Shown here: one piece after another, positions 5,791 to 58,374 of the stretch
Numbering within the stretch: position 1 is the first letter of the stretch
Layout: the number at the start of each line of letters is the position of its first letter
DNA from: Bryoerythrophyllum caledonicum
Taxonomy: Eukaryota; Streptophyta; Bryopsida; Pottiales; Pottiaceae
Direction of reading: 5' to 3'
Length of the DNA: 64,000 nucleotides
NCBI GenBank assembly: GCA_963971425.1
Contig: OZ020516.1
Location: 16,294,593 to 16,358,592 of the forward strand
Translations under genes and position numbers: made by a program
Notes under the pieces: generated by a model
Told to the model about the DNA's origin: nothing
Database searches by the model: none
The model's input: the letters and a program-made list of their open reading frames with translations, nothing else

Positions 5791-5812
5791 TGTACATGGG
5801 CATGTTATAAGG

Positions 5813-27700: not shown

Positions 27701-28800
27701 GTTCGAATTACATCACTCATGTGAAATGCACCACAATAGGGTTTCCAAAGACTCCATCCCAATGTCCTACACGCACCTTCGTTGTCCTCTTCTGTCTGTA
27801 CAATATTCATTGCACTACGTTAGACACGTGGACTAGTAATGAGTGCAGGCCGTCCCAACAAATGCGCGGCCATAAAACATCCCCGTGGACATCCCCACGT
27901 TTCTAGAGATGTCCGTGGAGACATCTCAAATGACATTCTTACGAACGCTGTAACGTCCACAAGAACATCTCTGTAGACGTAACGTGTAATATGAGAATGT
28001 CCCATGCGTTCTGTAAAGTCAACTAGGTCCGTTTGTGTACGAGAGCACCCTAGAAGAATCCATAAATTGTTGAAGAAGTTATAAAATGTATATATGTATT
28101 GTCATTTCTGTGTGAATTACGTACAGTTGGACATGTGTGCGCTATCCGAATTAGTTAATCTGCAGGAGTTCTATGTTGCCTTCATCTTTGAGCATACTGC
28201 ACTTAAATTAGGAAATGACATCCACACGTTCTCTGAGACGTCTAAGCGTTAACCGGGACGTCATAGAGAACGTCAACGTGGACGACTTAAAATTCTGTTC
28301 AGCGTCGTTAAGACAAGAGTCTTGCTTTTGAAGAGCCGAATACTGACATTATTCTGTGATGACAGGGATCCTCTCACGGCGGAACAAAGACCAAGTCAAC
28401 ACACTCTTCAGCGGTCACTGCCCTATTTGGGTGAGTACATAAACAGAACTTCCCTAACTACATAATTTTTCATACCATGCATCAGTATGTGTCCAATACC
28501 AACTTCTGTGACACCCGATGAGCTACATACCATGAAGATATACATGACTTCAATACCATTCTCCTCGTTTGTGTATTGATAGTGCTCTGTAAAACTATAG
28601 ACACTTGATTCCTAGTAAGTGTTCATAAACAATGTGCGTTATATGCAGACGTCTTGGTGGATGTCTTCGTTGATGTCTCTGCAGACATCTATAGAGACGT
28701 CAGTGAGTTCTCTGAAACGTTGTCAATGGTAAATCCGACGTCTGTAACCCCCTAGACATAGACGTGTACATGCACATCATGTTTATTGTGCTACAATTAC
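23300..28800. repeat. Interspersed GACGTC-family motifs in introns and the divergent promoter region
   Basis: Outside the exons, words such as GACGTCC, GACATC and CACGTAGACGTC recur at about 23,340-23,530, 25,000-25,100, 25,380-25,450, 26,390-26,720, 27,830-28,010, 28,210-28,280 and 28,640-28,770. They extend the subterminal family into the element interior. The cluster between the two divergent genes could let the TnpA-like protein regulate both promoters. That is inference from the known autoregulation in maize Spm. Confidence 0.6.
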
Positions 28801-28830
28801 AGGGTCATTGAGCCGTGTCGCTGCATCCCC

Positions 28831-29178
28831 ATGGCGTTGCATGAGGAGGCAGGGTCAGATGTCGAATCTGTGGGAGAGTGCGATCATCCGTATGAACCAT
28901 ATCCTTTCGAAGATTACAATGTACAGCATGTCGCGTCCTTGCAGCGGCTAGTGCTTCTACATAGCGAACACATGTATTTATACGAGCGTGGATTGATGAA
29001 CAATCAGGATTTCTTGGCTGAGACCGTGGATGATGTATACCACAAGAACATGTTCAGCATGTCATGGTTCTACGAGGATTGTTATCCCTTTGACACTTGG
29101 GAGGATGATTACGACCACTGGCTGTACGATCAAGTCTTTTTTGCTATGATCGATGGAGATGATGTACTGGCATCTTAG
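28831..29178 (+). CDS. Unassigned small acidic ORF in the outer EnSpm element
   Basis: A frame of 116 codons from the ATG at 28,831 (MALHEEAGSDVESVGECDHP), open upstream to 28,786. The product is strongly acidic and aromatic (EPYPFEDYNV, WFYEDCYPFDTWEDDYDHW). It has no domain I recognise. It sits about 760 bases before the transposase start on the same strand, between the two divergent genes. It could be an upstream exon, a separate short gene or chance. Its even composition and length make chance less likely. Confidence 0.4.
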   Translation: MALHEEAGSDVESVGECDHPYEPYPFEDYNVQHVASLQRLVLLHSEHMYLYERGLMNNQDFLAETVDDVYHKNMFSMSWFYEDCYPFDTWEDDYDHWLYDQVFFAMIDGDDVLAS

Positions 29179-29938
29179 AGGCCTCTATACTGAAGCCGGG
29201 TTCTTGGACCTATTATGTAATAAGGATGACGTTCTTTATAGACGTCTGAGTGGTAGACGCGGATGTCATTAGTAATGTTATGATGTTTCTCTGTTTATGA
29301 GGATGTCCAACTCAACGTGATGATGTTTACTACTTCATGGGTGAACGTTCGCTTTAGAGGCTTCGGTAACAGGGAGTGAAGCCATCATTGACTATGTAAA
29401 CACTTGCGAATATGTAATGTACACATTAATGACCGTTCTTCCTCCCATCCTCATTCAAAAATTCAGTTCTGTTCACTTCCGATCATTGAATGTAACGTAT
29501 CCCATCTCCTTTGTCGAAACATGAATCATCATTATGTTTTCATTGCAGAGCATGTTGCAAGTGCAGTTGGGAGCTTCTTGATTTGGAATGCGTGAATATG
29601 TCGAGCCGTCGATGGACACTTCATTTGTACTGAAGTAGTGACATTAAATAAACAACGCCATCTTCACATGCCCGGCCATCGACTACAGGCAAAAGAAGCA
29701 GTGGTGAGTGACGTACACTGGGCTGGGCGTTGGGACGTCCGATGGAATGTCCATAGGGATGCCTGTCTAAACGTCACTCCGTTCTCGAAGACATGGTCAT
29801 AGACATTGTGAAGGACATGATGACAAATCATACCACCACCTGTATAGTTAACTCCTAATATAATAGGTGATTTCACATTAGGTATGAGTTTTGAACAACA
29901 TCTCTGACATTGTATATGTGTTGCTAGCCACGTGAACC

Positions 29939-32900
29939 ATGCGTACGGGCAGGCGTTGCAGCGGCGCAAGAGTCCGGATCGATGACGACGGCCATACACT
30001 GCGTCACATCCCTCTTGTTGATCTCATACTACAAACAGAGCTACGAGTGGCAACGGAGCAGAATATAGTGTCATACCGCTGCCCTTGCCGAAATTGTCAC
30101 GGCGGTCAGCGCAGACGTATAAACGTCATTCGAGAGCACCACACGAGAGTTGGTAGACATCCTTATTTATCGTTTTCCATGATAGGTGGGGATCCTCCCG
30201 CTGGATATCCAGAGGACTTTATCTGGGTCCAGGACATTGCATATGACGATGACGTTGTAGAGCAGGCACCAAACATTGGCGCTTCTGATGTCCTGCAGGA
30301 CATCGCCGACGACATCTCCGGACGTAATCATGTTACAGAGGACGTTACTGCATTGGATGAGAATCACGACGTCCAGCGCCAGGTCATGGAGGCCCTCGAT
30401 CGTGGTGATGCACTGCATAGGGATGCAGAGGGGCAGCAACACTTGGAAGAGGACGACGACATTGATAGCGATACGGTGGATGGCCTCCAGCAATTGTATG
30501 AGGAAGCCACGACACCGCTGTATGCGGGATCCAGAACCAGCGTTGTTTCCGCTACAATCGTCATCATGAACATGTGTGTTGTTTTTGGGGTGAGCAACAC
30601 GTTCACGAGAGAGTTGCTGCGGTATTTGGCAGAGGATTTGCTCCCTGTAGGCAACAAGCTGCCCAATAGTCATTACGCCGCATCGAAGACCATTCGAAGG
30701 TTTGGATTGAACTACAACAACATCCATGCATGTCCTGATGGTTGTGTCCTCTATGAAGATGAACATGCGGAGTTGCAGACATGCCCAAAGTGTTCCAAGT
30801 CCCGATGGTTGGAGGGCACTAACTCCATCCCAGCGAAGGTGATTAGGCACTTCCCTCTCATTCCCCGCTTGAAACGGATGTGGCGATCACCAGAAATTGC
30901 GGGGATGTTGACAGGTCACACAAAGCACGTTAGTGACAACGGCGTGATGCGATCCGTGATTGACAGCCCATCATGGAAACACATCAACACGGACGTCGCG
31001 TTTGACGGCTTCGGACGTGAGGACCGCAACATGCGTCTTGCTTTAGCACTGGATGGTGTCAATCCTTTCAAGTTGAGCAACACAAATTGGTCTACGTGGC
31101 CAGTGCTGGTCTTAATCTACAATTTGGAGCCTTGGTTTGTGACGAAGAAGTTCTTCATATCCATGTGCATATTGATATCGGGGAAGCGTTCCCCAACTGC
31201 AACAAACATCGACGTGTTTGTGCGCCCGCTGTTGAAGGAGCTACACCAACTTTGGCGAGGAGTCGCCACACAGGATTTTACCCAACCCGTGGGGTCTCGA
31301 CGCTTCAATCTACGTGGATTGTTGATGTGGACCATTTCGGATTTCCCTGCATACGGCCTAATCTCAGGCCTATGCTGTAAGGGATATAAAGGATGTCCTG
31401 AATGTGGCCCGGAGACAGATGCACGGATGGTGAAGACAGGGGATATGCGTCCCGACCGTACGACACGAGGTTCGAAGATAGTGTATGGAGGAGCACGTCG
31501 GTACCTTGCTCGTCACCATCCGTACCGTAGGAACACTAGGTTCAATGGGAAGCGTGAGAACCGGACAGCGCCTCGAACCATGTCAGGTGCAGACGTCATC
31601 CATTACGCAGCGTGGCGGCAGTCATACTTAGATCTTGGTGGCAAGGAAGGATCTCCAAGTGACCCTGTGCACTACACGGGAGTCAAACGTCTTAGCGCAT
31701 TCTTTGAACTTCCGTACTGGCAGGTGAACACTTCGTATATGCTGGGTGTTGGAACAAATACCGGATGCATTGTGTCAATGTTGCTGTCATGGTAGACGTC
31801 GCAGCATTACTTGTGATGTCTATGTCGTTATGGAAGATGTTCTTGCAGACATACTTCAGGACATCCTCAGCAGCAGAGGGATGTTTCTAGAACCGCGTGG
31901 CAGTGTTCTTAGAAACGCACATGAAATATTACAAATCTAATCAACATGCATGGTTCATTCTAACAGCATCTCAAGGTTCGACACGTACTGGACGTCATGC
32001 ATTGCGAGAAGAATCTATGCGAGAACATTCTGAAGACATTGTTTGGAATGAACGATAGCCCAGGAAGTCGTCAAGATGTGGAGGACTTGAACATACGTGA
32101 GGAGATATGGCTGCAGCCTCCCCGACGCCGAGGTGACGAATACTACATGCCGCAGACACCGTACATACTTAAGCCTGAGGAGAAGCGAGAGTTTGTGCAC
32201 ATTGTTTCCAGCATCCGCACTCCCACAAACTACGTGGGCGCAATTCACAAGCGGCTGCAGGACGGAAAGCTGCAATACATGAAGACACACGACTATCATG
32301 TCCTCATGCAACAGGTATGGATACTACTCTTAAATTACCTTCAGTCAGAATACACTTATTTGTAATAGCTATAGTGCATTGCATGGGAACTGTGAATGTC
32401 TGTTTTTGAGGATTCTCTTGTATGGACCCTTTCCTGTAAGCCACGTCTTGCAAAACATGTGGACGTTGAATTGGACACAAACAAATGTTCTGCAAGACAC
32501 GATGATGTTTTCTATGACATTTCAATGTTTGGCCAGACAATGCTGATGTTTGTCGAAACATGCGCAGCGTAGGAGCCCAGAGGTGATCGCAGCCATGATT
32601 ATTTCCACCTTCTTGTGTTTTCGTTTTGAGAAGTCGAACATGATGATTGTACTACCTTTTGTAGATTCTCCCGGTGGCTGTTCGGAACTTGCTGGACGTA
32701 GAGGTGCACGTAGCTATCATCAAAATGTGTAGAGTCTTCCAGCGTATATGTGAGAAAGAGGTACGGGAAGACGCCCTCGATGCTCTCATGCGGGACGTGG
32801 TAATCGCAACATGTGTGTTGGAGAAGGAGTTTCCGCCCACATTCCTGAACGTGATGGCTCATCTTCCCGTGCATCTCGTGGAACAACTGTTCATATGCAG

Positions 32901-34348
32901 ACCGGTGCATTGCAGGTGGATGTATCCAATTGAGAGATACATGAAGACACTGAAAGATTACGTACGGACGTATGCACATCTAGAAGGGAGTATAGCAGAA
33001 GGCTATAGGTTAGAGGACACACTTGGGTTCTGTACAGAGTACATGCAGCGGCATACAGCAACAACCCACCGTGTATGGGACCCGAACGAGGACGCCAATA
33101 TGAACGACGAGATATTGAAGCTGAATGAATACACGAAGCGAAGAATGTCCGATGAGGTCCGCGGCTATGCACACGCATTCGTAATTGACAACGCACCTTG
33201 TTTGGAGCGGTGGCGAGAGTGAGTACCTCTCTAAGCACTTTCTGATGTTCTTCTTGACATCATTCATATGCATCAAAATAGGGGACACGTGAACGTTACA
33301 TGCCTGTCCATGCTGACATTGTACATAACATTGTAGAATTTTGGAGGATGTACAAATGATGGACGTGCACATGTCATTTGCAACGTCCACGTGAACAGGC
33401 GGATGTCACTGGAGACGTCTTAGGGGATAAATCCCAACGTCACAGGTGCACTACATGATTACCGTACATGATTGATGTCTAAGAACAGAGGTGGATGTGC
33501 TGTTTAGGGAATACATCACAGCGAAGGGACGCAGATGGGAAGAGCGAGAGGCATTTCGAGTACTGTCACGACGTCGTCGACCTTCTAGACCGGTGACATA
33601 CCCACCCGATCTGAGTGATTTGCCAAGCTTTGCTGATTGGCTGAAGGCGCGGGTGCAGGCAGCAGAGCAGACTGGAGTTCTCTTGGACCAGGACGTGATA
33701 CAATATTCATGTCCGCCGGAGCGTTATGCAACCTCCCACCGACAAATGTATGCATTTGGGATGCATTTGCGTGTTAGGACTTCCGAAAGAGGCCTTGTAA
33801 CTCGGGACTCCTGTGTGGTGGCCACCTATACACAACAATTGCGTTGGGGGATTCGCAATGGGAGGCCCATTGACCATACTGCCGAGTATGTCGGGTACAT
33901 CGAGGAGATACTGGAATTGGATTACCGCAATCACTGTACGACGATGTTGCTATGCGAGTGGGTTAAAGCGTCACGGGATGTGCGAGTTCCTAGCATTGAA
34001 CGTGACAAGTACGGATTCAGTGTGGCAAACTTCAACCACATGGACAACAGAGTACATGCGGATTCCTTTGCATTCCCCTTGCATTGTCAGCAGGTGTTTT
34101 TCTGCGATGGCCCTACGAGACTCGGGTGGAAGATTGTTTGCAGAACAGAAGTTAGAGGGAGGCGAAACACACCCCATCATCAGCATCTAGTAGCCAATGC
34201 TATCACTGTTGGTGACGACGAGGACTTCCAGGGCTTGCAACCGCCGATTTTGGAAACGGATCCAATTTGGAGAGCTGCTACGACGGGAGGGAGTTATGTC
34301 GTAACCGGAACAGAAACCAACAACCAAGTTGAGATTGAGGAGGAGTAG
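29939..34348 (+). CDS. TNP2-family transposase of the outer EnSpm element (four exons)
   Basis: Exons 29,939-31,723; 31,967-32,314; 32,665-33,218; 33,484-34,348, joined by GT/AG introns, give about 1,183 residues without a stop. Domains in order: N-terminal transposase-associated Cys cluster (YRCPCRNCHGGQ, near residue 50); TNP2 core (PLYAGSRTSVVSATIVIMNM, HACPDGCVLYEDEH, TCPKC, LALALDGVNPF, MWTISDFPAYG, CCKGYKGCPECG, PYRRNTRFNGKR); LDVMHCEKNLCENI across the first intron; DUF4218 (ILPVAVRNLLDVEVH, FPPTFLNVMAHLPVHLVEQL, EGSIAEGY); and DUF4216 (GYIEEILELDYRN, QQVFFCDGPTRLGWKIV). The Asp in ALDGVNPF, the Asp in ISDFPAYG and the Glu in MHCEKN are candidate catalytic residues. The last acceptor is approximate. 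All domains are present, so the gene may still be coding. Confidence 0.85.
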
Positions 34349-34386
34349 TGATTTTTGGACATTTTGCTCGTAGTACCGTACTTTAC

Positions 34387-34389
34387 TGC
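34387..34389. other. 3-bp target-site duplication (left) of the inner element
   Basis: TGC here equals TGC at 58,361-58,363, immediately outside the CACAAC... inverted repeats. A 3-bp duplication is the rule for EnSpm/CACTA elements. Confidence 0.85.
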
Positions 34390-34411
34390 CACAACTACAA
34401 CCCCCGTACTT
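34390..34411 (+). repeat. Left terminal inverted repeat of the inner EnSpm-type element
   Basis: CACAACTACAACCCCCGTAC plus two more bases match the reverse complement of 58,339-58,360 perfectly. Similarity continues weakly past it (TGGGAATTGT against GGGGAGTAGT). Confidence 0.9.
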
Positions 34412-37123
34412 TGGGAATTGTGGTGGGAGTTGTGATCTCAGATCCTAGGATACCTCCCCTGTCGACCTTCCCGCTCGTCACTAGATTATCAGGTCACTTC
34501 TTACATTTCGAACCCTTTCATTTACCCTCAAGGTAGTTCGTCCATGGAATTCCCTATTCTATAGTGGACACCGCGTGCATGAAGCTGATTTTTCCTTCAT
34601 AAAGACATAAAATGATAGAAATGCGTTGGATGCATTACTGCTGCATCTTTGGGATTTGTCGACTGCTAATAGCCGTGGTCCATAATGGCGAATACATGTC
34701 TCATTGTCTATGGCTTATTTTGTACTGCACTAAATCCCTCATATTGGTGTAGGGTTAATTTATGATTAATTAAGTTTAATTAAAGGTTTAATTTAGGGTT
34801 AATTTAGGATTAATTCATGTTTAGGTAACAAATACGATATGATTTATTTATTTTTAATTCAATTTGGCCTCGATGTAATGTCTGTACATGGGCGTCGGCC
34901 TGATATTATTAACAACTAGTGGGGTACCCGTATCCTCCGTACACATCATTTTGTTCCGCTGGCCTTGATATTCAGGAGACGTTCTTTATGAATTTCAAGT
35001 TCAAGCTCCCATTCTTATCACTTAGCCTGGGGTTCTCCACTACGGCTATCATGGGGCTCACTTCCACTTATCTTAAGTTTTATTAGATTCCCAAATTTTT
35101 TAAGTTCCGTATAAAATATACATTGTGAACCATGTGTATATTGATGAGAGCCGCCTTACATTGGAATTAAACAATGTTCCATGCAACCTTTATTGCACGA
35201 TTCATAAAAGGATAAAAACCATTATGATATTCCCCCTATTTTTACAATATTTTGTTTATACTACAAATAAGCTTGTAATATTTGTCAATGTTGGCTCTAA
35301 TTTTAGTTTGAGCTTACCCAAACACCATGATGATTCAACCAATATGGCTATTATCCATTATTATTTAACCATATCATTGGTAGTAACACTAGATGTTGCG
35401 TCTTCTAACCAGTGTTTCAATGTTTTTATAATTTATCTCTAAAACCAATATGTGGACAATGTCAGCACATATCATATTTTATTAAACATGCTTACGTACT
35501 ATGATTTACATGTTTTAATATTCATGCATAAACATCAATCTATTTAACCCCTACATGGAAAAAGACCCCATGTGAGTTTTTGCAAATCTTGGCCACGTTC
35601 CCATGGTTGCAATTCATATTTTCAATTCTTGAAATTCGATAGAGAGATGCAAAAACAAAGGAAGTACATGGGAGTATATGATTTTTTCTCATTTGACCTA
35701 TCAGAAATTTTTATGCCATCTTATCCCTAAATTTTCAACAGTTTCATGAGCGGATTCTTCAAGATTTGAAAAGGTTCCTACGATGTCAATTTAGAAAATT
35801 ATTTTTTATTGTATATGAACATTACAAAAATCTTTTTGCGAATACAATTTTTTTCTAAATCAAACATTCCATGCAAAAGTTATGCCATCTTCAAGCAAAA
35901 CTTCGTAAGCCCAGCCATATCATTCATCTACTAAAAAAAATTCTAGGACACTCAATTTAATGTGAGATTTTCAATACTAGTAGATAATATTATTTCCTTC
36001 CATATAATAAAAAAAAATCTTCTCTTCAGTTCAAAATAGCATGCTAATCCAAGTCAAATATATTTCAATTTTCAAATATTTTCACACATTATTGGGAAGG
36101 TACCAAAAAACTTCTTTTCTACATATGAACTATAGATTTTATTTTTTTATTTTTTTATTTTTTTCTACTATAAGATGTTCTGCAAATATTCTAGCTAAAA
36201 CCATTTAGATTCGTCTTCTAAAAGATATTTAGTTCACAAACAAAGATAACGTGAATTAGCAATTCTTGAACGGGCCACTCCTTGCATAATTGTTTTAAAT
36301 ATTCCACACCCCTTTCAACTTCTAAAAATTAAGGAACTAATATCATGCTCAACATGATAGTATGAAATTTAGATCTTCTGTAGTTCAAAAATTTCACACT
36401 ACATGAAGTTAAAGTCTACTAATCCAAGGAATAAATGAACCATTTCTCTACTTCAAATACTATTATCTATGAATCCATGTGGTGAAAGTATATGAAATTT
36501 AGTGAGTATGTCACTTAATAAGTGTTAATTCAGATCCTATAGTTCAGACTAAAAATTTGAGTATTTATTGCTTATTCCACTAAAATTATTAAATTTGAAG
36601 TATTTTCCTTGGAATTTATAAAAAAAATTAAGTGGTTAAGGAAAAAACTCTTAAGTGTGGATTGGAAATTTCCTACAACTTTTGATGCAACATTGTAGTA
36701 AATTTGTAATTTTGAGTACTATATTGAAGATTATTCAACTAACATCTTTCATTTGAAAGTCATTTCAATATCTTAAAATTATCATTTTCAAATACAATAT
36801 CATACATGTAGGATATTCTGGACACCAGTTCCACCTTACAAATTGAAGTTCCATGTCTTAATCACATTTACGAAAGGTAAAATACAAAAGACATATTACA
36901 TCATGTGATAAATGCAACGCATCTCTTCCCTACAACAAAATATATTAAGCTTACAAACATTTGTGTGATAAAAGAAGATCCAAAATATAATTGATAAAAG
37001 TTCTATCTACAGATTCTACAAATTTTATTTTCAAGATATTTCTTCATATTTCCTGTCACCTGCACATTCACAAAATAGCATGAGATCAAAGTTTCTAAAG
37101 CATTTATATTCAATGTAAATTAA
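34412..37123. other. AT-rich interior of the inner element without a recognised gene
   Basis: No supported gene. At 34,741-34,825 there is a cluster of GGTTAATTTA/GATTAATTAA words. The one open frame of about 100 codons (35,125-35,442) is hydrophobic and without a domain. Confidence 0.4.
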
Positions 37124-37330
37124 TTATCTAAACTTTAAATATAGATGACACACAAAATGGAATCCAAGTTCATACACATCTACTTTAATAAAGAGTTTAC
37201 AAAGCGATATTGTACCTTGATGGTCTTCCTGCTCTTCACAGGTCCTTGGAAACCAGTCCAACACTTGGTAACTTTGGATGAGCTTCCGAAGTGGACTCAA
37301 ATTTTTGTAGTTTTTCAATTACAATTTCGT

Positions 37331-38612
37331 TTAAGCCTTTAACTCTTCCATTAATGTTTTTACCATTTTTTTTTCCACCATCAAATTTCGAATTCTACCA
37401 ACTAAAGTTTCACTAATTTGGACACTACTTCCAATTCTACTAAAATTTGCAGAAAATTCCGAGGGAACAGTTCCATGAAAGTCTTTATTAGCCCTCCATA
37501 TTAATTCGACTATCCCATCACAACGTCCAAAATCTATACTACATTTATAAGATGGTAGTATAAACTCACCCCCTACTGACGTAAAACCATCTAGATAAGT
37601 TGCTAAATTTCCATTATTTTTAAAAATCGGTGCAAAAATCCCAAAAGCATATGAACTTTTATCATTATCTTTATGCATTCGATTATCAAACTTATCAATA
37701 GTAAAAACCAGATTATTTACAAAAGGTGACTCTGACTCTAAATCGTGAAATTCACAATCTGAAAAATCAGGGATATTATTTTCTTTAGCCTCCTTTAACA
37801 TTACTTCGGATAAAGAGGGTGCAAGTGATTTAAATCTTTTTAAATAAAAAGAGGAAATCCACTTTAATACGTTCTTCTGATCCTCTTCCCATTTTTGAAT
37901 CCATGATGGTGTTTGCTGCATGAAGGAACTAGGACTGTACCTTCCTAGTGTTTTACCTTTCTCCATTCCTGTAAAAAAATATATCTAAATCAAATCATTT
38001 GAAAATTAAAACAAATTAATATTAAAACTTATACAAACTATAAAAAATAGAATAACTTAGATATACTTACCTCCTCTCCATCCTATGGAGAACATCTGTC
38101 CATGGAATTTTGCAGAGTTAATTTTGATTTCAGCAGCTCCATCTTTTAGATCCAATAATTTTTTTGTTAACTCATTAAATTCATGTTTAAATTCTTCCGA
38201 CATAGAATTAAATGAATTAAACTTGGCTACCATTATAATATCATCATTATCTTTGTCGAAAACTAGAACTTTATTTTGATATAATGAAGTATATTCCTCA
38301 GGAACAATTTCCATAAACTCCCCTTCGAAGTTTTTATCATCTCGCTTTTTCACAACCAAATATGGTTTATCTACATCATAACAGAAAAAAGAGTTAATCA
38401 AAGTATAAGAAATAATATATATATACATATATTTTTTAAATAAATAAAGGAAAATAACAAACCTGGAATGTTTTCGTGAAATTTTGTAATTGCTCTTTTA
38501 TTTCTTTTCCTGGTGTAGGCCTTTGCACCTTTCTTGTTCTTTTCTTTACTCACAGTAAGAATAACCAGGAAAACATCTGATAGAATAATCATAATCATTA
38601 TCACCATTTTTA
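37331..38612 (-). CDS. TET/JBP-like 2OG-Fe(II) dioxygenase (predicted, spliced)
   Basis: Three exons on the minus strand: about 38,612-38,463, 38,370-38,071 and 37,968-37,331. The junctions restore frame (NIP/DKPYLVVKKR and FSIGWRGG/MEKGKTLGRY) with GT/AG borders. The last exon shows the dioxygenase core: FDNRMHKDNDKSSYAFGIF carries the Fe-binding His-x-Asp; GGEFILPSYKCSIDFGRCDG leads to VELIWRANKDFHGTVPSEF, which carries the distal His; and FSRIGSSVQIS supplies the Arg expected to bind 2-oxoglutarate. The N-terminal GWRGGMEKGKTLGRYSP block is also characteristic of the Tet-like 2OG-Fe(II) oxygenase family known from fungi. Such enzymes oxidise 5-methylcytosine or related bases. A further upstream exon is likely, since an acceptor precedes the first exon. 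All key residues are present, so it may be active. Alternative: a relative acting on another substrate. Confidence 0.72.
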
Positions 38613-38639
38613 CGAAATCTGCAAAATAAATCAAAATAT

Positions 38640-39452
38640 TTATAAGATATTAAATTAGAATATAGGATTTGAATAGAACATTATAATTTCTATGTTTAAA
38701 ATGTTATTTATTTTAAGTCTTTTAAATGAATGTTTTGATAAGTCATGAAAGATATCGCCCGATGTTAATTTCAGCAGGCCAATATCCTTCTAGACGATTT
38801 ATCATAACTTTCATTCATGAGACTAAACAAAAATAAATTATTAGGATGATGAGTTTACATACACATGGAAGTGCATTTATCCCAAATTAAAGTGTAATTA
38901 CCAAAATCCCGCAAAGAATACTCATAGATGTACAAACTTGGTTGTATCTAAGCTATCCAGTTACTATCAAACCTTAAAACTAATTTCCATTTTCGTACCT
39001 GAGTTGAAATGCGAGATAGGAGCCCTCATATTACAAGCAGCTAAAAGGCATGACAACCAACTCTCAAATGGGCCCCACATACTGGAACCACCTTTACTGG
39101 AAGTGCTGAATTTGATCTCGGAACTAGTGCACTTCAGGAACTGCATCCGTTTGCAGAGCCTTCAGAATAGTATATGGATAAATTCTCCACTTCTATAGCA
39201 AAGAGCACCCTGCATTCGTTACTCTTCAAGGTCTTGGTTGACATGCCTGAACTATTCTACTCCACCTGACTGTTGTGCCCAAGCGCTAGAGATCAATTGA
39301 TAGGCCTGTAAATGATGCACTATTTCGTCATGTGATTGTAGGCCTTAGTGTGATCATAGGTTAACATCAAAGAATAGTGGACAAAATAACCAGAGATCAC
39401 GTAATAACTAGGGATCCTTTCAATTAGATGAAATAACCTAGGATCATTTCTT
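38640..39452. other. Spacer upstream of the dioxygenase gene
   Basis: AT-rich sequence with no clear exon. A missing 5' exon and promoter of the minus-strand dioxygenase gene could lie here, but I could not identify them. Confidence 0.3.
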
Positions 39453-41245
39453 CTAAAGAGTTATCTTCATTTTCTTGCGCCCTAGGCCGGAGTCCCATCC
39501 AGATGAGAAAGACAGAGGAAGCTTGTTGTCAGCGGAGAACAACATGCCACCCGAAGTGCCAACCTTTCCACTCTTGGGCAACCCTACGAATGCACGACTG
39601 CCTACGGAAGTGGTCCTGGGCACACCACTCTGCAATGATATAGGCGCCTTTTCCTTCACATCCACGGCCTTCTCGGATTGTGCATCTTCCGCCTCAGCTC
39701 TTTACACCGGATGTTGCGTCTCAGCCTGCAGAGGTGAGAGGAAAACAAATCAAAGTCTATCCATCTGATGTGGAAGAAATTCTCCATGGCGTGTACAAGG
39801 TTAATGACTTGGGGAAAGAAAAGCCGATTACAGAAATAACCGCATGCTCGGAAAAATGAACCACCCGACCTCTACAAAACAAATTCAGAAGGAGTTTGTT
39901 GACTAAGAAAAAAAGTGTGAAGACATTATTGATTACTAGGAGACTAGAGATTTAGCTCTTTACACCAAAGGAGCAGGAACTGTAACTTCAGCAGTGGTTG
40001 TCTACTCAGTAACTCTGGACTGAGGGGTGGTCGTCTTCTCAGGAGCTGTAGGTTCAGCGGTGGTGGTCTTCTCGGGCACAGGATTCAGTGGTGGTGGTCT
40101 TCTCGGGCACTGGATTCAATGGTAGTCGTCTTCTCAAGAGCTGCAGGTTCAACGGTGGTCGTCTTGTCGGGCACTGCAGCTATCCAAATTCCAAATCGTA
40201 AGTACTGTTTCAAATTCAGAACATGGTTGATAAACATGTACAGAAATTATCATATTCAGGGGGAGACACACTAAGTATATACACAAGGTTTTTATCAGAA
40301 TTAAATATATTGGTACTACTCATTCCATGAGTAAGTGCACGTATCACTTCAAATTCAAGTCTCGTAATTCATACGTGATCTGCATGTTTGTCTCCCGAAC
40401 TCAAGGTATCAAAGATGGAATCTACATCGACACCTGCCTTTGTAGTGACATGCCCAACTCTCTAGTTGACTCGCTACATACTTCGTTCGGCCTCACCAAG
40501 ATTCATATTTACTAATAGCAACTCCCAGACTGGTGGTTCAATATGATAATAAGATATGATCTCCCCCTTATAGATACTGTCCAAGGAGAGACGACACACA
40601 CATGTATACTTCATATAATATTTTACACTGTGAAAGGATACGATCTTGCAGTTGATAAGATAATCACTTCACAAACAATCTAGAGATCAAGCTTAAAACA
40701 ACTGACTCTGTAGATCATACTATGCTTTGATTCCATATATTATTGAAACGTGCATGTTGCAAGAGTGCTTACATGATATCAAAGTACGCACAACCTCGTC
40801 CTTTGCTACATCAAGGGCGGCCTCATCGCGATTGTTCCGCACAAGTGGTTCAGCACCTGTAACTCATCCGGATTCCAACTTGTAAGAGCTCAAAATCCCG
40901 ATTTTGTCACTGGAAAGTGCCTCTCGTCTACTCATGAGAGACTCATGAACCTGAACTCCAACGTGACGTAAATGAACTTCCCGAACAAGGAAACCTCCAG
41001 ATTTTAGCAATAGCTCTACCACCTTGACGTGTCCTGACTTCGCAGCTCAAAGCAGTGCCGTATCTCCTTGCTTCAAGAAGAAGAAAAGGCAAAATGAGCA
41101 CGAGGAGCAAGCAAAAAAAACAGATCAATAAACAAGAATAATGAGAACATAGATGGAGTGGAAAGCCATTCGACCTAAAAATTATCTTCCACTCACCTTG
41201 GTGCGCGTATTGACAGGCGCTCCACTGCGAATTCAAATCTGATCT
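39453..41245 (-). pseudogene. Captured ankyrin-repeat gene fragment, broken
   Basis: Minus-strand exons are visible. About 41,245-41,200 ends SGAPVNTRTK before GTGAGT. About 41,070-40,940 reads QGDTALL-stop-AAKSGHVKVVELLLKSGG, which is the ankyrin consensus with one in-frame TGA. About 40,845-40,765 reads AEPLVRNNRDEAALDVAKDE. About 40,177-39,950 is a minisatellite coding for repeated PEKTTTAEPA-like units with frameshifts. 39,725-39,453 reads SEKAVDVKEKAPISL to the C-terminus WDSGLGRKKMKITL after another in-frame stop. Ankyrin proteins mediate protein binding. The stops and shifts show this is a dead fragment, probably a host gene picked up by the inner transposon. An independent insertion cannot be excluded. 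Confidence 0.65.
39950..40180 (-). repeat. Coding minisatellite in the ankyrin fragment
   Basis: About six imperfect units of roughly 30-39 bp with the plus-strand core GGTGGTCGTCTTCTCGGGCAC alternate with GCAGGTTCA-type spacers. On the minus strand the units encode Glu-Lys-Thr-Thr-Thr-rich repeats. Length changes between units cause frameshifts. Confidence 0.6.
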
Positions 41246-42056
41246 TAACTAGCTCCAAATTCTCACTTCCGAATTCTTCTCTCCCTCAGAAACTCAACCT
41301 CCTCCCCAAGCTCCGGCGCCTCTCTAGTTTGTTTTAGTGCTCTTGAACCCTGATCTCCAACGCCCAAGTCACAATGTACAAATTCTAAACTCTCTCCCGG
41401 CAGCTCTCCAACGTCTAGGTTCCCATACATCCGCCCCGAATGGAAGCTCCCTCCTTAAAACCAGTACGACGCAGGCACAAAAACCTGAAACACTAAACTC
41501 CTTCCCTGCGTCGTGTAAAACTTTACTGCATGAGTTCGTGCTCACGATGCATGTCGTAGACAGGAAAAAAAAACATACACAAAACTCCCTTCAAAAAAAG
41601 TTCTTGAGCTCAGAGAAGAGATCGAGCACCCAGACTCGCATTCCAAGCCCTGACACAAGCCGCGAGGCAGCCCGCTGCTCCGGTCTCCGCTCCGCACCAA
41701 CCCCAACGTACTTCCTCTCCTTCTTTTTCTAGATATTGATATTCCTGTATTTTTTGTGCCAGAGCTGTTCCTGGGAAACCCGCAATTTCCAGTAAATAGA
41801 AATTCTATCCACCTTAGTTAAGCCTCGAAGTCAATAGCCGTGTCATCGGTAGTACTATCAAACGTGCGCTCCAAAATTGCCAACCCACGGTAATCACCAA
41901 TGTGATGACCGCCGAAAGCGACAACATATTTAATCAACTTCAGATTCTAAACATAGAAGCACGCGGTTCAGTCTTGTTGCATTTTCATTGACTTTTTGCA
42001 ATATTGGACGATGAGAAGTTTATTCCTTCGTATCATCAAAATTTAGGTTATTCTCG
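41246..42056. other. Interval between the ankyrin fragment and MITE A
   Basis: An open plus-strand frame of 131 codons (41,337-41,732) is Ser/Thr/Pro-rich and without a domain. The stretch could be the 5' flank of the captured ankyrin gene. Nothing else is recognisable. Confidence 0.3.
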
Positions 42057-42994
42057 TTAATTCCTGAAGGACCACGACGTGCATCCGGAGAATATCCGAA
42101 GAGTGAGGGGAATGAGGTTGACAGGTGAGAGTGAGGGCGTTACGACGTGCATCAAAGGAGAAATCGACCAGATTGTGGTCGATCTGACTCTGGTCAGGCT
42201 CTCAGTTACTAAATTTAGATCGTACGAAGTTGCAACTTTTTGTAGGTTGTAGAGTTTTCCCATACCTTTCCAATGACACCATTCATGCTTCAAAATTCCT
42301 CATACTTCAGGAGATATTCATGGTCAAAGTTTGAAAACACTGTTAGGGCATGCTTAAATCTGCCCAAAACTGCGGTATATGCTCATTCATTCTCAAAATC
42401 TGCCCAAAATCAATTAGATCGCAGTAACTTCAAAAATTCACCAGAAATTGAGATTTTACTTTTTTTCTAATTTTGTTTTTCGTACATGTAAAAGAGGTAG
42501 TAAAGCATGATCTCACCGTTTGGATTTCCAATCCAATAATTTTTTACATGCCTTGTTAATTGTTGAAAATGGGCATTTGTATTTGTATTTCAGCATACCT
42601 CCATGTGAAAAATTAAGCATTTCTTTAGGTTTTATAGATCCTATGAGGGTAAAAATTATCTGGACATATTCCTTACTCACATAGGAACAAGAATTTGAAG
42701 AGCCTCGTGTCTAATTTCCTTTCAAAAATGGTTTTTTTGGCCCCCAAAACATTAGTTTTCCATTCTACAACAAGGAAAAAATCTTTTTTTTCAACTTTGA
42801 ACATTACGATCTCACAAATGGTGAGGAATTTGATTCTAAGATTCGGTATGCATGTACATGTACAAGTTAGGTACTAGATCTTTTGGTTACGTACTTCAAA
42901 AATTGTCAAAAATTGAAAATTTACATCTTGCATCAAAAGAGGGTAGTTTTGAGGGTTTTTGGTTGTTTTGAGGCCACTCACCTTTAGGGGTTAA
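42057..42994. mobile_element. MITE A: TTAA target, CCCCTAAAGG termini
   Basis: TTAA flanks both ends (42,057-42,060 and 42,991-42,994). Left terminus TTCCTGAAGGACCACGAC and right terminus, reverse complemented, CCCCTAAAGG. The element is 930 bp, non-coding and AT-rich, and shares its ends with MITEs B and C. The interior diverges from theirs, so it is either older or a different subfamily. Confidence 0.6.
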
Positions 42995-43184
42995 GGGGAT
43001 CAGGCCGAGACGACCGCAGGTGCGGTACAGTAGTTTGCCTCGGGAGCAGAGCGTGGAAGGAGTCGGTGCGGAGAGAGTCAGCCTCGAGGCCAGTTGGTGG
43101 TTCGGTAAATTTAATGATTACTGTTGTGGTACTTAATGATTTGAACGCACTAAACCTTTTACATTTTATGAAGATTTTTACTAA

Positions 43185-44048
43185 GGCCCTCTTTACACTA
43201 GAGGCGAGAAGCCGTAGAGAAAACCTCACAAGGGCCATGGCTCATCCTTGAGAAGCCAACCTTTGAACTTGACGGCCTTTGGATATAGTGTAAAGTGAGA
43301 AGGGACCACAAAATAAAGTGCTCATTTTTTTAATATGATTTTTTTTTATTAAACTTGCTGTCAACCACCAATACAAAAAGATGACATCATGCACTCACCA
43401 GTGGAGGGCTATAAGGTCATGAAACAGACGACATCCTGTGATAGACATGAAGATGGTAATTTTATTATTTTTTAAGTTTTTTCTTTTGAGCACAAACCAA
43501 ACAAAGTTTGATTGCAAGGAGACCAAGAACAAAAACAGAGCCGGCAATGCAAGAGGCAGAAGAGGGCTCCCACAGATGCTCCCACAGATGCCAGAGGTGC
43601 CCATTCTAGCAAGTCTGCAATCGCAATCAACTCTGGAAACCTACATCATTTCTCGAATCAGCCTGGAAACCACCAATTCCTGACAATGCTACTGTACAGC
43701 TATTTTCAAAACATTCTTCAATACCCAAAGATAGAAATGGCCGTTCTGAAATATTCATAAAAAATAAAAATGATTGGCTGTGAGAATTTTGGCCAAATGG
43801 CCTCCCGGATTTTACGTCAGGCCCACCTCTTGAGATGGGCTTGACTAAAAATCTGGGGGCCGTGAAAAATGTGCCTTTTTGCTGCCACAAAGGACAAAAG
43901 TGTTGTCCATGTCATTTTCTCCTCTTTCGTCGCTTGGGCTGAAAAAATCGGGTGTAAAGTCACATTCTTTGGTCTTCTCGGTTTCTACGCCTCCCATTGG
44001 CTGAAATTTCTCTCCTTACGGCCTCTCGCCTCTAGTGTAAAGAGGCCC
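43185..44048. mobile_element. Tourist-like (PIF/Harbinger) MITE, 864 bp
   Basis: Inverted termini GGCCCTCTTTACACTAGAGG (left) and GGGCCTCTTTACACTAGAGG (right, reverse complement) extend for about 30 bp with few mismatches. TAA lies directly outside both ends (43,182-43,184 and 44,049-44,051). A TAA/TTA duplication with GGSCCT termini is diagnostic of PIF/Harbinger-type MITEs. No transposase is encoded. The open frame at 43,627-43,890 is a shadow. Confidence 0.8.
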
Positions 44049-44103
44049 TAAAAGTACAACTATCAATACTATGTAAAGAGAGTGATCGTTGTCAACATGG
44101 TTG

Positions 44104-45023
44104 TTAACCCCTGAAGGACCACGACCACTTTCGCTCTAAAACCAGTCCAAAATTGCCACTGCCAAAAAGAGACATGAAAATCACATTTTAAAGTGATTTT
44201 TCGGATTTCCAACCATAAGATCTAAAAACAGACTTCTACATAAACATGCCATTGAATTTTGGTTGCAATCCACTACACGGACTGATAGATTTTAGTGTTT
44301 AAAGTCAAAACAATGGTTAATTTCTCCCTTGCGTTGAGTAGATCAGGAGACTTTGACTTCACTTTGTATCAAATTTTTGCATTGTACAAGGACTAAATCT
44401 TTAAACATTGTCTTAAGCATGATGTTATATCCCAACACACCAATTCTTAGAGGTAAAAAAGGGGTGTAGCATATTCAAAACAACTGTGCAAGGAGTGGAG
44501 GTTCAACAATTGCCATTTCACGTTTTTTTTTTGTGAACTACGTTTGTATTTGAATGATAATCCAAATGGTGAATAAGAAGGTTTTCACCACATATTGTTG
44601 TTGAAAAAGTAAAAAGTGAAAAATATAAAGATCTCTAGGTTTTATGTAGAAAAGATGAATTTTTTTTCTCCCATTGCCTGACAATGTGTGAGAATGTTTG
44701 ACTTGGAATAAAATGCCTTTTTACACTAAAGACAAGATTTTTTTTGAAAATTTCCAAAGAAGGAAATATTCTTTATATGTGTGAAAAATCTCAATGTCAA
44801 TATAAACTTTTGTAAAAAAAATTGGAGGTGCCGGGAGTCCCCACTTTTGGCTTTAAGTGGTACTAACTTTCAAACCAGAAATCCAAAAAATAAAATAAAA
44901 ATATCTCCACAAAGCTCTTATCATAGAATAAAAAATTCAGAGACAAAGGATTTTTTTCGAATTTTAGGAACTTACCCAAAATAAGAAATCCCCCCGAAGG
45001 AGATTTGGTCCTTTAGAGGTTAA
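44104..45023. mobile_element. MITE B: TTAA target, CCCCTGAAGGACCA termini
   Basis: TTAA at 44,104-44,107 and 45,020-45,023 flanks a 912-bp element. Left end CCCCTGAAGGACCACGACC; right end, reverse complemented, CCTCTAAAGGACCAAATC. Its interior aligns along its length with MITE C (shared words GGTGTAGCATATTCAAAAC and TGTGCAAGGAGTGGAGGTTC). It is non-coding. Outside the TTAA the flanks differ, which supports TTAA as the target duplication. Confidence 0.72.
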
Positions 45024-45062
45024 ATGGGATCCGTCAGGATATCCACTCTTTCCGCCCATACC

Positions 45063-46415
45063 CATTACATGTATAGTACCCTCACACAAGTATACGTGCA
45101 TTTTGCTTTTACAGTTTCCACACTACATTGCTACCAACTTTGGCACCGTCCTGAGGGCTAAACATTTGTCAATTTACCATGAAATTTTTGGCACAAGATC
45201 ACTTCTATGTTGAAAACATGTGCGCAAAATTTCAAGGCCAAAACATTTATACAAAAAAAGATATCCAAGATTTATCAACATGGGGTAGCTGTAAGAAAAG
45301 TTTCATAGCTGCCAACTTTGACACCCTTCCAAGGATTGAAAGAATTTTTTTGGCCCATGTAATTTTTAGCATGAGATGACCTCTATGTTGATTACATGTG
45401 TGAAAAATTTCAAGTCCAAAAGATCCACACAATGAAAACTACATCAAAAGCTAGCAAAATGTGTAGTTGTGAGAAACATTTCACTCCTAGCCAACTTTGA
45501 CACACTCCCAAGGATTGGATTTTTAGGTATTTTCCCATGAATTTTTTTGACATGAGACAATCTCTATGTTGATCACATGCGTGCCAAATTTGAAGGCCAA
45601 AATATCTACATATCAAAAGATTTTTGAAATCTACCAACATGTATAGTTGTGAGAAACATTTCACTCCTGCCAACTTTGACACCCTCCTCTGGATTCAATT
45701 TTTTATTTTTCCAAATGATAGTCTCGTCATATGAACATATCTATGTTGGTTATACATGTGCTTCATTTCAAGTCCGAAAGACCCACAAAAGAAAAGAAAC
45801 AAATCTAAATCTACCAACATGTGTAGTTGTGAGAAACAATCAGCGAAACCATTTCACTATTGTCAACTTTGGCACCCTCCCTAGGTCGGAAAAATTGTTA
45901 ATTGACCATGAATTTTTGGCACAAGATCACATTCATGTTGATAACATGTGTGCCAAAAATCAAGGCCAGAAGATGAATACAAGAAACCATCTTTAAAATC
46001 TACCAAAATATGTAGCTACGAGAAACAATTTTGAACATCCTTTTTTCTATTCATCATGTGGCCTTGGAATTTGGCACACTTATTATAAACATAGAGGTGG
46101 TGTCATGCTAAAATTCCATGGGCAAAAAAAATTCTTTCAATCCTTGGGAGGGTGTCAAAGTTGGTTAGTTGTGAATGGTTCACAACTACACATCTTGGTA
46201 GATTTTTAATATCTTTTTTTGTATTCATCTTCTGGCCTTGAAATTTGGCACACATGTTGTCAACATAAAGGTGATCTTGTGCAAAAAATGTCATGGTAAA
46301 TTGACAATTTTTCAGCCCTCAGGAGGGTGCCAAAGTTGGCAGCAGTGTAGTGTGGAAACATACAAAATCAAAAAAGTACGTATATTTGTGTGAGGGTATT
46401 GTACATTACATATAC
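45063..46415. repeat. Array of about 179-bp units ending in an inverted repeat
   Basis: The word CCAACTTTG (once TCAACTTTG) recurs at 45,134, 45,312, 45,491, 45,670 and 45,863: five direct units 178-193 bp apart. Two inverted units follow, with CAAAGTTGG at 46,156 and 46,331. Outer arms are inverted over about 330 bp, including TACCCTCACACAAGTATACG near 45,075 and its inverse near 46,385. The structure resembles a foldback element or a MITE with amplified internal repeats, inverted about 46,030. Frames inside it are artefacts. No protein domain is present. Confidence 0.75.
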
Positions 46416-48590
46416 AATCTCTGTTGATCTCCATGTTTTCATCTTGTGAAATTAGCATATGAAACCCTTACATTATTTCATTCTTATATAACCCTCATGT
46501 CATATCTATGACATCAATGACATTGGGTAAGGTTTTTAAGTTTATATAGCCCCTAAAGGACCAACTATACCCAAAGGGCACACATAGGATTTTGGGCATG
46601 TACCTAAATTTTTTCATTATCTCAAGAATTTAAAATCCAAGCTTTAGAAGACTTTTCAAATATATGTAAAAGTCTTATTATTTATTTTAAAAACTAATTT
46701 AGGTCCTACATCATCTAAAAACAAATCCAAACAATCTCCTTTCATGGTTCTTTATTGCAAGGTTCAAGAAAATGGAATTTATGAAACATTAATATTGAAG
46801 AAAATTGGTATTGAACAAAGTATGCATGTCATGATTTGTTTTTTTCAAATATTCCAAATGAGGTTTAAAAAAATACAAATGGTGCATTACCTTTTTGGAT
46901 TAATTCAAGTTCTAAACATAACTGGTAAGATATCTATGTGGAGAATAATTTATCTACCTATATAATAGGCGATAGGCTATCCGTCCGCCGCTCCCGGCCA
47001 CGTGACCTATGGAATTGCCATTTGAATCAAATGTACCTGTTGAATTGAATGTGAACTTTGAAAGAATCCTCCATATGTGTCATTTTGAGGAATCCTTTAA
47101 AATGCCCTTTGGAGGAATCTTTAATAGTGCCCTTTGGAGGAATCCTTTATAGTGACATTTTATTCAAATTTGGCTTATTGAGTTTTAAAATTATATATGT
47201 ATCAAAAATAGAAAAATAAAACCATAATTTCCAACATATTGAAACTACACAATATACTACCTCGGGTACATAAAATAAATGATAGTTATCTAAAGACAAT
47301 AACACGTATATGAAATAAATAATGGGTATTTAAAGTGAATAGTAGGTATATATAGTACATAATGCATATATAATGGGTGAATTTTATTTTTGCATTTACA
47401 TTTTTGCATTTACATACTTGAGTTCATGTGAACTTTTTACTACACAAATTAGACAAGTAGGACCATTTTTTCCAACAGGTTTTACTACATTTTTACACTT
47501 GATGTAAAATGTATAGATTTTGAAAGGTGATTATGGCCAAAAATGCATGGAGGACCTTATAACAATAAGTAGATGGGAGATATCCATCCTTTGTTCAAAT
47601 AAATCAAAAACTACTTTGGAAAATGATTTTTCATCTACAAAGAGTTGGCGCATTGAAGAAATTAAAAGGAAAAGACAAGATGATATTGGCAAAAAGCAGG
47701 AAGAAAATTAAAAAAACAACTTACATAGATGGTACATGTTTTATCTAGAATAGTTGCTTTTGAGTTTGACCTTATATTTGGACAACAATTGTTGTCAAGG
47801 TATATTTTATTTTAGTTTTTATTTTTATTTTTATATAGACATCTTTTGAGATTTCTTTTACACACTCGTCTAATATGCAAAAAACATTTCATTTCTATTA
47901 ATGGGGTCAATTATTGTCCAGACAAAAAAACAATGTTCTAAAGTTTCATACTAATATTTTTTTCAAATTATGTGTTATTTTTCATATTTCATTTTTAAAA
48001 TGATTGTATTGAAAATATTTAATACCAACTTCATGTTGTCTTTTTACAATATGATCTCAAGAAGGATTGAAACAATATTGATTTTATGTCAATATTGATA
48101 TGGAATGCGATTTATGACCCATATGGAATCAATATGACCATAAGAAACATATATTTCTGATATATTCTACATATGAACAAAATTGCCTTCTATTTTCCTC
48201 ATGTACTTTTGGTAAATAAATTTTGAACAACCAAATCGAATTTTTTTTGTAGTATAAAAATTATAAAGTAGAACCTACAGTAAGCACATAGATGTGTTGT
48301 TACCTAGTCTAATGTCAGCATCAACAAGCCTTATGTGGTAATTGAAAAAAAGGCAAGCAAATAATTAAGAGGTTTGAAACAAATCAATGATAGCATGGTT
48401 GTGTGTGCTAACAACATGTATATTGTATTCATGTTAAATTTTTACCACACAAACTAGACAAGTAGGGGCTTTTTTCCCAACAACTCTTACCGTACTACAT
48501 TTGGACATTTGATGCAAAAGATATAAATTTTTGTAGTTCAACGGAGCCCATAATGTTACATGTCCATGGGGACCATTAGATATTGTGGTT
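46416..48590. other. AT-rich interior with fragmentary repeat ends
   Basis: GCCCCTAAAGGACCAACTAT at about 46,542 looks like a lone left terminus of the TTAA MITE family without a partner. Around 47,085-47,155 a word of the type TGCCCTTTGGAGGAATCC is repeated three to four times. I see no gene. Confidence 0.4.
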
Positions 48591-49280
48591 TCCATTGGCT
48601 AGCATAAACTTTCTTGGTGGTGAAGTTCACCGGTGGTCTTCACCTTATGAAGTTGGCCGGTGGACTTCACCGTTGGGTGTTTACACTACTAACCGGTCAA
48701 GACTTCTTCATGCATTACTTTATTCTTTTTTTGTCTTGTCCAACATCCACCGCTCCCCTCAAATAACCATGTCTTGGCCGAGACTTCTTGATCGGCCGGT
48801 GGAGTTCTGCACCATAGTGTAAAACCCCCCTAAGATTATACTCGGGGCCAATTCCCCCATATGTAAAGCCCTTGGAGCCAAGAAGTCGGCCGACTTAATA
48901 AATGTAGAGAATTTCAACCATAAATGAAGAGAAGACGAGGCCAGTAGAGCCGTTCAGATTTCTCTAAATCCAACGGGTCTGATTTGTTGAAAAATATTAT
49001 ATATTTTTTTTTAAAAGTTTTTTTTATTGAAATCTGACAATGGCCCCTAGGCCAAGAATTGGCCTTCTGTTCTTGGTGCACCCAAGTCACCATGCTCACG
49101 CCATGCTCGGGCCATGTCAGATCATTGTTTTTTAGAATAAAAAATTCTGACAACCAAGTTGGCCTGGCCTCTAGGTGTAAAGGGCTTTGGGCCAATTTTA
49201 GCCTCTCCGCCAATCCGAAGTGAGGATTTCAGGCCTCTTACACAACGAATTGGCCCGGCCTCTAAGTGTAAAACAACCCT
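48591..49280. repeat. Cluster of degenerate Tourist-like termini
   Basis: Several terminus-like words related to the MITE at 43,185 occur: GTGTTTACACTACTAACCGG (about 48,677), ATAGTGTAAAACCCCCCTAA (about 48,813), GGCCTCTAGGTGTAAAGGGC (about 49,167) and GGCCTCTAAGTGTAAAACAA (about 49,248). They suggest overlapping or nested remains of PIF/Harbinger-type MITEs. I could not pair them into one element with matching duplications. Confidence 0.4.
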
Positions 49281-49423
49281 TAGTTTCAAGGCTCAGCTAA
49301 GGCTCTAGACTCAAGATTCCGTGTTTGATTTTTTTTAGCCTCTCCTACTGCCAGCTACTAACTGGCATTTCCAATCCAACCTCATTTGCCAATTTGCTAA
49401 AACTACATGTAGTTTCGCCTATT

Positions 49424-50375
49424 TTAACCCCTAAGGTACTGTGACAATTTTACACCAAAAACACTTCAAAATTGTTGGATTCTAGTGCAATGAACAAAGA
49501 AGGAAACCAAAACTTCGATTTCTAGTTCTGACCGTAGGATCTCAATAAAGACTTATTGAGTAACATACTCACAAAATTTCATAAAGTTTGACCGCATGGA
49601 TTGAAAGATTATAGTGTTTGAAGTCAAGCAAATGGTTCATTTTCTTCCCTGCGTTCAGTGGATCAGCAGACTTTGACTTCACTTGCTGTCAAATTTTTGC
49701 ACTACACAAGGTCAAAATCCATTACCATCTTGTTAAGCATGATGTTAGTTCCTTGTACACCAATTTTTAGAGGTAGAGGACGGGTGTAGCATATTCAAAA
49801 CAGCTGTGCAAGGAGTGGAGGTTCAAAATTTGTTAATTCACACTTTATTTTTTTGTGAACTTAATATGTTTTAGATTGATAATACGCATGGTCAATAAGA
49901 AGGTCTACACCACATATTGTTGTGGAAAAAATAAAAAGTGAAAAATATAAAGATGTCTAGGTTTTATGTGGAAAAGAAGAAGTTTTTTTGGTACCTTGCC
50001 CGACAATGTGTGACAATGGGTGAAAATAATTGACTTGGGTTGGTATGCTATTTTTCACTAAAGACAAGAGATTTTCTTTGACAATATGAAAGGAGACAAT
50101 ATGACTTGCAAGTATTGAAAATCTCACATTCAATAGAGTGTCGTAGCAAAAGTTTTTGGAGGTGCCTGAGGTGCCCACTCTCCCCATTTGAAACTCAATA
50201 CCCTATAACTTTTTCATCAAATGTCCAATATAGGAAAAAATTGTTTTCCCACTAAGGTCTTGGTAATGCCTTTTTATAGAAAAAATTCAAAGAGGAATGT
50301 TGGAAATTGACACCATAGGAACTTGACGGAACTTTCAAAAAGCCCATTTTTGACACTTGGTCCTTTAGGGGTTAA
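49424..50375. mobile_element. MITE C: TTAA target, CCCCTAAGG termini
   Basis: TTAA at 49,424-49,427 and 50,372-50,375 encloses 944 bp. Left end CCCCTAAGGTACTGTGAC; right end, reverse complemented, CCCCTAAAGGACCAAGTG. Interior homology with MITE B includes GTGTAGCATATTCAAAACAG and GTGCAAGGAGTGGAGGTTCA. Non-coding. Confidence 0.72.
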
Positions 50376-55823: not shown

Positions 55824-55879
55824 GTCATTTTTTGTATTGTTTGTTCTATTCTGTAATTACTATTTTCAAAAATGTGGAG

Positions 55880-58360: not shown

Positions 58361-58374
58361 TGCCCCCTTCATCT

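Follow-up and report, generated by a model that had tools for sequence, protein, structure and literature searches.

A TET-like dioxygenase gene as a very likely cargo of mobile EnSpm/CACTA transposons in a plant genome

The 64,000-nucleotide stretch of DNA analyzed here, which we call the window, raises the question of whether a gene for a TET/JBP-like DNA dioxygenase can travel as part of a plant transposon and, if so, what it might do there. By its sequence, the gene resembles those for the enzymes with which animals and fungi remove DNA methylation. The gene occupies three exons on the minus strand:

38463..38607, minus strand: TET-like gene, exon 1; open frame with a GT donor; 48 codons plus 1 base
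38071..38370, minus strand: TET-like gene, exon 2; in-frame AG..GTAAGT borders; ends in GWRGG
37331..37968, minus strand: TET-like gene, exon 3; catalytic core with HKD, the distal H, and the R; matches PF20515 by itself at 7.1e-45

The initial annotation joined three minus-strand exons into one protein, and this model holds, as two GT..AG introns (92 and 102 bp) connect them in frame to yield a product of 360 residues. The gene start, formerly placed at 38612, is corrected to the ATG at 38607. Exon 1 is supported because stretches of 37 to 57 amino acids are matched at 38 to 43% identity upstream of diverged TET copies. Compared with the sister-subfamily copies L001, L006, and L010, the window gene differs by 3 to 6% in its exons and by 8 to 15% in its introns. 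Its C-terminal tail after VEKK is in a different frame from that of L003, L001, and L011, and the catalytic core is open. This out-of-frame tail at the end of exon 3 is common to the window copy and L010, and either it arose twice independently or it stems from the assembly. A chance open reading frame is ruled out by the PF20515 match, the conserved introns, and the dN/dS values given below.

The spliced protein matches the Pfam family of Tet-like 2OG-Fe(II) oxygenases (PF20515) over residues 111 to 318 at 1.5e-52, and its score of 179.2 bits lies far over the curated cut-off of 27; the profile search thus bears out the family assignment. The HxD, distal His, and Arg motifs quoted earlier are present as well, and the corresponding residues of exon 3 (H98, D100, H164, and R177) are invariant in all 15 sequences of an alignment, A1, in which the window exon 3 is joined by two relatives from the database and by twelve other loci of this genome, picked for their open frames. 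We take the HxD...H residues to be the Fe(II) facial triad and the arginine to bind 2OG. Protein database searches returned 0 to 3 relatives each. A profile search of the PDB with A1 gave five matches, none of them significant, and the sole 2OG-oxygenase among these is the algal TET homolog CMD1 of Chlamydomonas (PDB 7cy4), a weak likeness (E=1.2, rank 4, behind three heparinase chains at 0.2) that spans profile positions 130 to 184. A single-sequence PDB search with the TET-like protein matched no 2OG-oxygenase. CMD1 makes 5gmC using vitamin C (PMC12730594).

The TET-like gene lies within a transposon with the following features:

34390..58360, no strand: inner EnSpm/CACTA-type element, 23,971 bp; identical 22-bp TIRs, TSD TGC/TGC; both ends also in the copy on contig C9
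34390..34411, plus strand: left TIR of the inner element, 22 bp; seen again at C3:29230331 with one base changed
58339..58360, minus strand: right TIR of the inner element, 22 bp, identical to the left TIR
52463..55593, plus strand: TNP2_B transposase of the inner element; PF02992 5.8e-60, PF13960 1.4e-33; parts are Transposase_21 (52463-54328) and DUF4218 (PF13960; 54583-55593)
56778..57119, plus strand: tentative B3-like DNA-binding exon; PF02362 4.9e-06

Here the earlier description of the element stands: the 22-bp TIRs and the perfect 3-bp TSD are found at 34390/58360 with TGC on both sides, a TNP2 transposase lies between them, and the 5'-CAC..GTG-3' form of the TIRs together with the TSD and TNP2 upholds the EnSpm/CACTA-type identity. 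The terminal sequence CACAACTACAACCCCCGTACTT stands at 34390 and at 58360, its first 22 bp being identical at both ends. TNP2_B is encoded on the plus strand, opposite to the TET-like gene. The B3-like exon scores 26.8 bits, below the curated PF02362 cut-off of 30.1; it is identical in the C9 copy, and no further tblastn match at E≤1 was found among the fetched loci. Tentatively, and judged by its sequence, it agrees with a plant host and might aim something at the inner element. The inner element also contains three copies, one of them inverted, of an AT-rich repeat of ~0.9 kb (35709-36639, 44104-45026, and 49424-50378) that are 68 to 88% alike and that occur near other TET loci too. In addition, 33-nt inverted ends (94%) at 43184-43216 and 44017-44049 enclose 866 bp, and this stretch (43184-44049) is probably a small nested element.

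The inner element is itself nested inside a second transposon with its own TNP2, which was overlooked in the initial annotation:

19584..59748, no strand: outer canonical CACTA, 40,165 bp; identical inverted ends, 26 bp from CAC
19584..19609, plus strand: left TIR of the outer CACTA, 26 bp
59723..59748, minus strand: right TIR of the outer CACTA, 26 bp
29936..34348, plus strand: TNP2_A transposase of the outer CACTA; PF02992 1.8e-60, PF13960 9.6e-33, PF13952 1.1e-05

Perfect inverted stretches of 27 bp extend over 19583-19609 and 59723-59749, and their CAC-starting part, CACTATAAGAAACCCGTGTTTTTTGT, stands at 19584 and 59748. GACGT words are dense from ~19 to 34 kb of the window and again at 58 kb. 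TNP2_A comprises Transposase_21, DUF4218, and DUF4216 parts, the last of which (PF13952) scores 26.4 bits, below its cut-off of 30.6. The inner element starts 41 bp past the stop codon of the last TNP2_A frame. Being the nearer of the two transposases, TNP2_A was considered as the TET element's own, but its position beyond the inner TIRs, and the presence of a separate transposase (TNP2_B) between them, assign it to the outer CACTA.

This composite recurs elsewhere in the genome. The unit 19580-59749 is found on C9 at 98.7 to 98.8% identity, with the inner element aligned at the same place and ~1.06 kb of TNP2_B absent, and a partial copy on C14 shares 19584-43350 with the window, which lies on C3, and then diverges. 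At the outer left end, each of the three copies has flanking DNA of its own. The TSD of the outer CACTA is a perfect AGT/AGT on C9 and ATT/ATA, with one mismatch, in the window copy. Given these copies, their different flanks, and the C9 TSD, we conclude that a CACTA element of ~40 kb bearing the TET-like gene has moved. The left border of the inner element is also joined to different DNA at C3:29230331, where one TIR base is changed, the adjoining TNP2_A-type transposase is 79% identical, and a TET copy inside is 83 to 92% identical. A clean second insertion of the inner element at this position (C3:29.23 Mb) was rejected, since the left border alone is clean; the right side either has been rearranged or represents a further copy of the CACTA around it, and no TNP2_B turned up in the portion of the locus that was read. 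Overall, we regard it as very likely that the TET-like gene is cargo of a mobile EnSpm/CACTA element.

The host is almost certainly a plant. The genome contains 49 exon-level matches to WRKY (PF03106), a domain that to our knowledge has only few copies outside plants, and these matches, together with an excess of C>T changes at CG and CHG described below, support the plant host proposed for the TET-bearing element. Fungal contamination is ruled out, as the window is part of a 38-Mb contig in a 437-Mb genome with WRKY genes, and because PF20515 matches are spread across contigs C1-C4, C6-C12, C14, and C15.

To place the window gene among its relatives, we draw on a PF20515 profile search of the genome, which gave 120 exon-level matches, all 120 over the family cut-off; merging matches within 5 kb yielded 101 loci. 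The same profile had no match in 14 control genomes of unstated kind. At least 150 TNP2 genes are present (150 of 420 candidates were scored), and with the same 150 scored, a TNP2 is found no more than 20 kb away from 21 of the 101 TET loci, the other 80 having no listed TNP2 within that distance. On 11 contigs of known length, 19 of 87 TET loci are near a TNP2, against 1.2 on average and never more than 5 in 1000 random placements; this test leaves out the 14 other loci, places points evenly regardless of transposon clustering, and counts five TET-TNP2 pairs that are copies of one arrangement. The spacings fall into recurrent groups: five pairs at ~5.9 kb on opposite strands, which is the window type (C3, C9, C7, and two on C14); five at 4.9 to 7.3 kb on the same strand (group 2); five at 10.1 to 10.4 kb on opposite strands (group 3); and three at 10.1 to 10.9 kb on the same strand (group 4). 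At the two group 2 loci read, a TNP2_B-like transposase is 56 to 57% identical to that of the window and the TET-like gene ~63% identical in exon 3, and at the one group 3 locus read, a TNP2_A-like transposase is 71% and the TET-like gene ~40% identical. As far as these few loci show, there seem to be two EnSpm lineages in which the TET-like gene and the transposase diverged jointly. In group 2, the copies diverge from one another ~265 bp upstream of where the TET-like gene starts, a pattern suggestive of an exchange of the TET module between element backbones.

The boundaries of the other TET-bearing families are partly defined. In the g5 family (group 3), the terminus on the TNP2 side is real, with flanks that differ at C1:1025543 and C2:9394173. 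Candidate ends on the TET side (C1:988177, C2:9431433, and C4:26989699) were rejected, as the outer flanks are identical in the three copies and the repeated unit therefore goes on beyond them. The g5 end pair on C1 has no TSD (AAT/TGA), and no end was found in three of eight end windows for this family. A stretch of 25 kb read for the g2 TET family (C3:35.06 Mb) yielded no pair of TIRs. Three TET copies with identical profile scores lie within ~153 kb on C14 (C14:19136727, 19167932, and 19289336), pointing to local duplication.

The TET-like copies vary in their state of preservation. Between families and subfamilies, exon-3 cores give dN/dS of 0.11 to 0.25 at dS of 0.15 to 1.9, values of dS above ~1.5 being near saturation, and by these sequence comparisons the PF20515 loci of diverged families are under purifying selection. 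Among close pairs, which are too recent for a test of selection, three have a dS of 0 and the others range in dN/dS from 0.04 to 1.26 (1.26 for L008-L009 and 1.00 for L002-L019). The exon-3 match is free of stops in 21 of the 30 best-scoring loci and interrupted by a stop in the other nine. Because of these stops and the out-of-frame tail of the window copy, many TET copies are probably dead; intact copies exist.

Plants silence transposons through CG and CHG methylation, and methylation of this plant type leaves its trace as a surplus of C>T changes at both CG and CHG. The three composite copies align over 23,746 sites, among which there are 363 singletons, each polarized by the state that the other two copies share. 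C>T changes per available site amount to 4.3% at CG (82), 4.4% at CHG (68), and 1.0% at CHH (68), such that they are four times commoner at CG and CHG than at CHH, and A>G changes in the same copies to 0.4%. The element therefore appears to be methylated by its host, and the putative TET substrate, 5mC, to be present on it. As the element has clearly been mutated by methylation, any protection against it is incomplete at best.

What the gene does for the element can be approached from these observations. We consider it rather probable that it is working cargo of plant EnSpm/CACTA transposons, with the predicted TET/JBP-type dioxygenase oxidizing the 5mC of the element, and we place anti-silencing by such oxidation, as the function under selection, just on the probable side; the substrate 5mC, the action on the element, and the benefit to transposition are all presumptive. 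Under this model, an Fe(II)/2-oxoglutarate dioxygenase would oxidize 5-methylcytosine on the transposon's own DNA, after which either MET1/CMT3-type maintenance would fail following replication or repair would excise the oxidized bases, and expression of the transposase gene and binding of the ends could escape CG/CHG silencing. A TET domain is able to demethylate a CACTA element in a plant, since the human TET1 catalytic domain, when targeted to Arabidopsis CACTA1, erased methylation in each of the three sequence contexts and altered the expression of the element, and methylation came back once the TET1 transgene was lost (PMC5834696).

Against anti-silencing cargo stands the possibility that the TET-like gene is a passenger, captured once or a few times and copied along with no role in transposition. 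Purifying selection between diverged families (dN/dS as above), catalytic residues kept throughout the aligned sequences, and, at the few loci read, the lasting association of TET with TNP2 across diverged families all argue against a passenger; the exon-3 stops in nine of the 30 best loci, the outer TIRs of the composite, on which an inner cargo can ride passively, and the parting of one TET family upstream of the gene, which suggests a module swap between backbones, argue for it. We judge it unlikely, with enough weight to be kept in mind. A different chemistry on DNA or RNA, such as oxidation of thymine or 6mA or addition of a vitamin-C-derived group as by CMD1, might mark or protect the transposon rather than demethylate it. 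Such activities are reported for TET/JBP relatives (PMC12730594), and CMD1 is the sole 2OG-oxygenase among the PDB profile matches, at a score short of significance; the CG/CHG footprint, however, identifies 5mC as a base present on the element, and we consider another chemistry quite improbable.

It is also conceivable that these genes form a host family that serves the plant and lies near transposons by chance or was domesticated later, as the 80 loci with no listed TNP2 nearby would allow. The window gene, however, lies inside two nested TIR-bounded elements, the composite occurs at three places, TET-TNP2 spacings recur, and 19 of 87 TET loci lie near a TNP2 where 1.2 would be expected, so that a host family seems very improbable to us. 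Returning to cargo that counters silencing, a wider interpretation, which we offer as speculative and with somewhat less than even confidence, is that plants have enzymatic 5mC oxidation as a property of their transposons: CACTA-type elements of this lineage would bear a TET-type eraser that counters CG/CHG silencing and would let it diversify and spread, perhaps with a DNA-binding factor encoded by the element (the B3-like exon next to TNP2_B) to direct it, and its products could feed the disputed oxidized cytosines reported from some plants.

TnpA, a protein of the maize CACTA element Spm/En, is a DNA-binding protein and no oxygenase. It has been connected with the activation of the element that encodes it and with loss of methylation there, a precedent for a CACTA protein that accompanies demethylation of its element (PMC10398659). 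VANC of the Arabidopsis VANDAL elements is another element-encoded plant anti-silencing factor; it would be a functional likeness only if the proposed mechanism holds, as VANC counters the silencing of MULE elements in a sequence-specific manner (PMC10398659 and PMC13317346), whereas PF20515 is a catalytic dioxygenase family. The closest parallels are fungal. Kojima 2025 describes complete transposons with TET/JBP genes, EnSpm included, in three fungal lineages, and the fungal TET-bearing EnSpm elements, like those described here, have 5'-CAC..GTG-3' ends, a 3-bp TSD, and a transposase together with a TET/JBP dioxygenase; TET genes have been exchanged between these elements, as is suggested here too (PMC12730594). 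The present elements differ in their plant host and in their TNP2 transposases with DUF4218. The HxE hallmark of fungal PE-type TET proteins (same source) is absent in A1, where HxD is found throughout. The KDZ (Kyakuja/Dileera/Zisupton) TET transposons of basidiomycetes likewise represent a transposon-linked TET/JBP expansion (PMC12730594), but they belong to another transposase superfamily and another host. Large EnSpm elements with accessory genes have been described in red algae, and giant EnSpm elements in Ectocarpus (PMC12477816).

The claim that a TET gene in a CACTA-type element would be a new combination accordingly stands in part. TET plus EnSpm is not new, because it is published for fungi (PMC12730594); what is new here is the plant host and the scale, ~101 PF20515 loci. 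A 2024 paper describes TET homologs in plants as unidentified (PMC11233409), and a review from 2026 on how plant transposons capture genes contains neither TET nor dioxygenase as a whole word (PMC13317346). Among the matches listed in a search of open-access titles and abstract starts, with subscription papers and preprints outside its scope, none reports a plant TET gene. The finding is real, stronger in scale and mobility than earlier stated but weaker because fungi have the same combination. If it is true, a selected, transposon-borne TET-like family of ~100 loci would allow a direct molecular test of whether oxidized methylcytosine in plants is made by enzymes and whether transposons bring along catalytic erasers that act on their own silencing, and the fungal alliance of transposons and TET would exist in, or have been transferred to, another kingdom.

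Several other features were observed in the window, an Rfam search of which gave no match. A LINE-like element on the minus strand (61659-62495 and 60856-61770) has RDIETNPGP, presumably a 2A-like motif, upstream of the endonuclease domain in its ORF, and a second LINE-like copy on the minus strand (2164-9589) has a degenerate GDIEQNLGP. Finally, CACTATAAGAAACCCGTGTT has 878 ends per strand genome-wide with up to 2 mismatches (control counts, 2 and 0), and among the 100 places listed, many form plus/minus pairs ~2.3 kb apart that look like a non-autonomous CACTA family.
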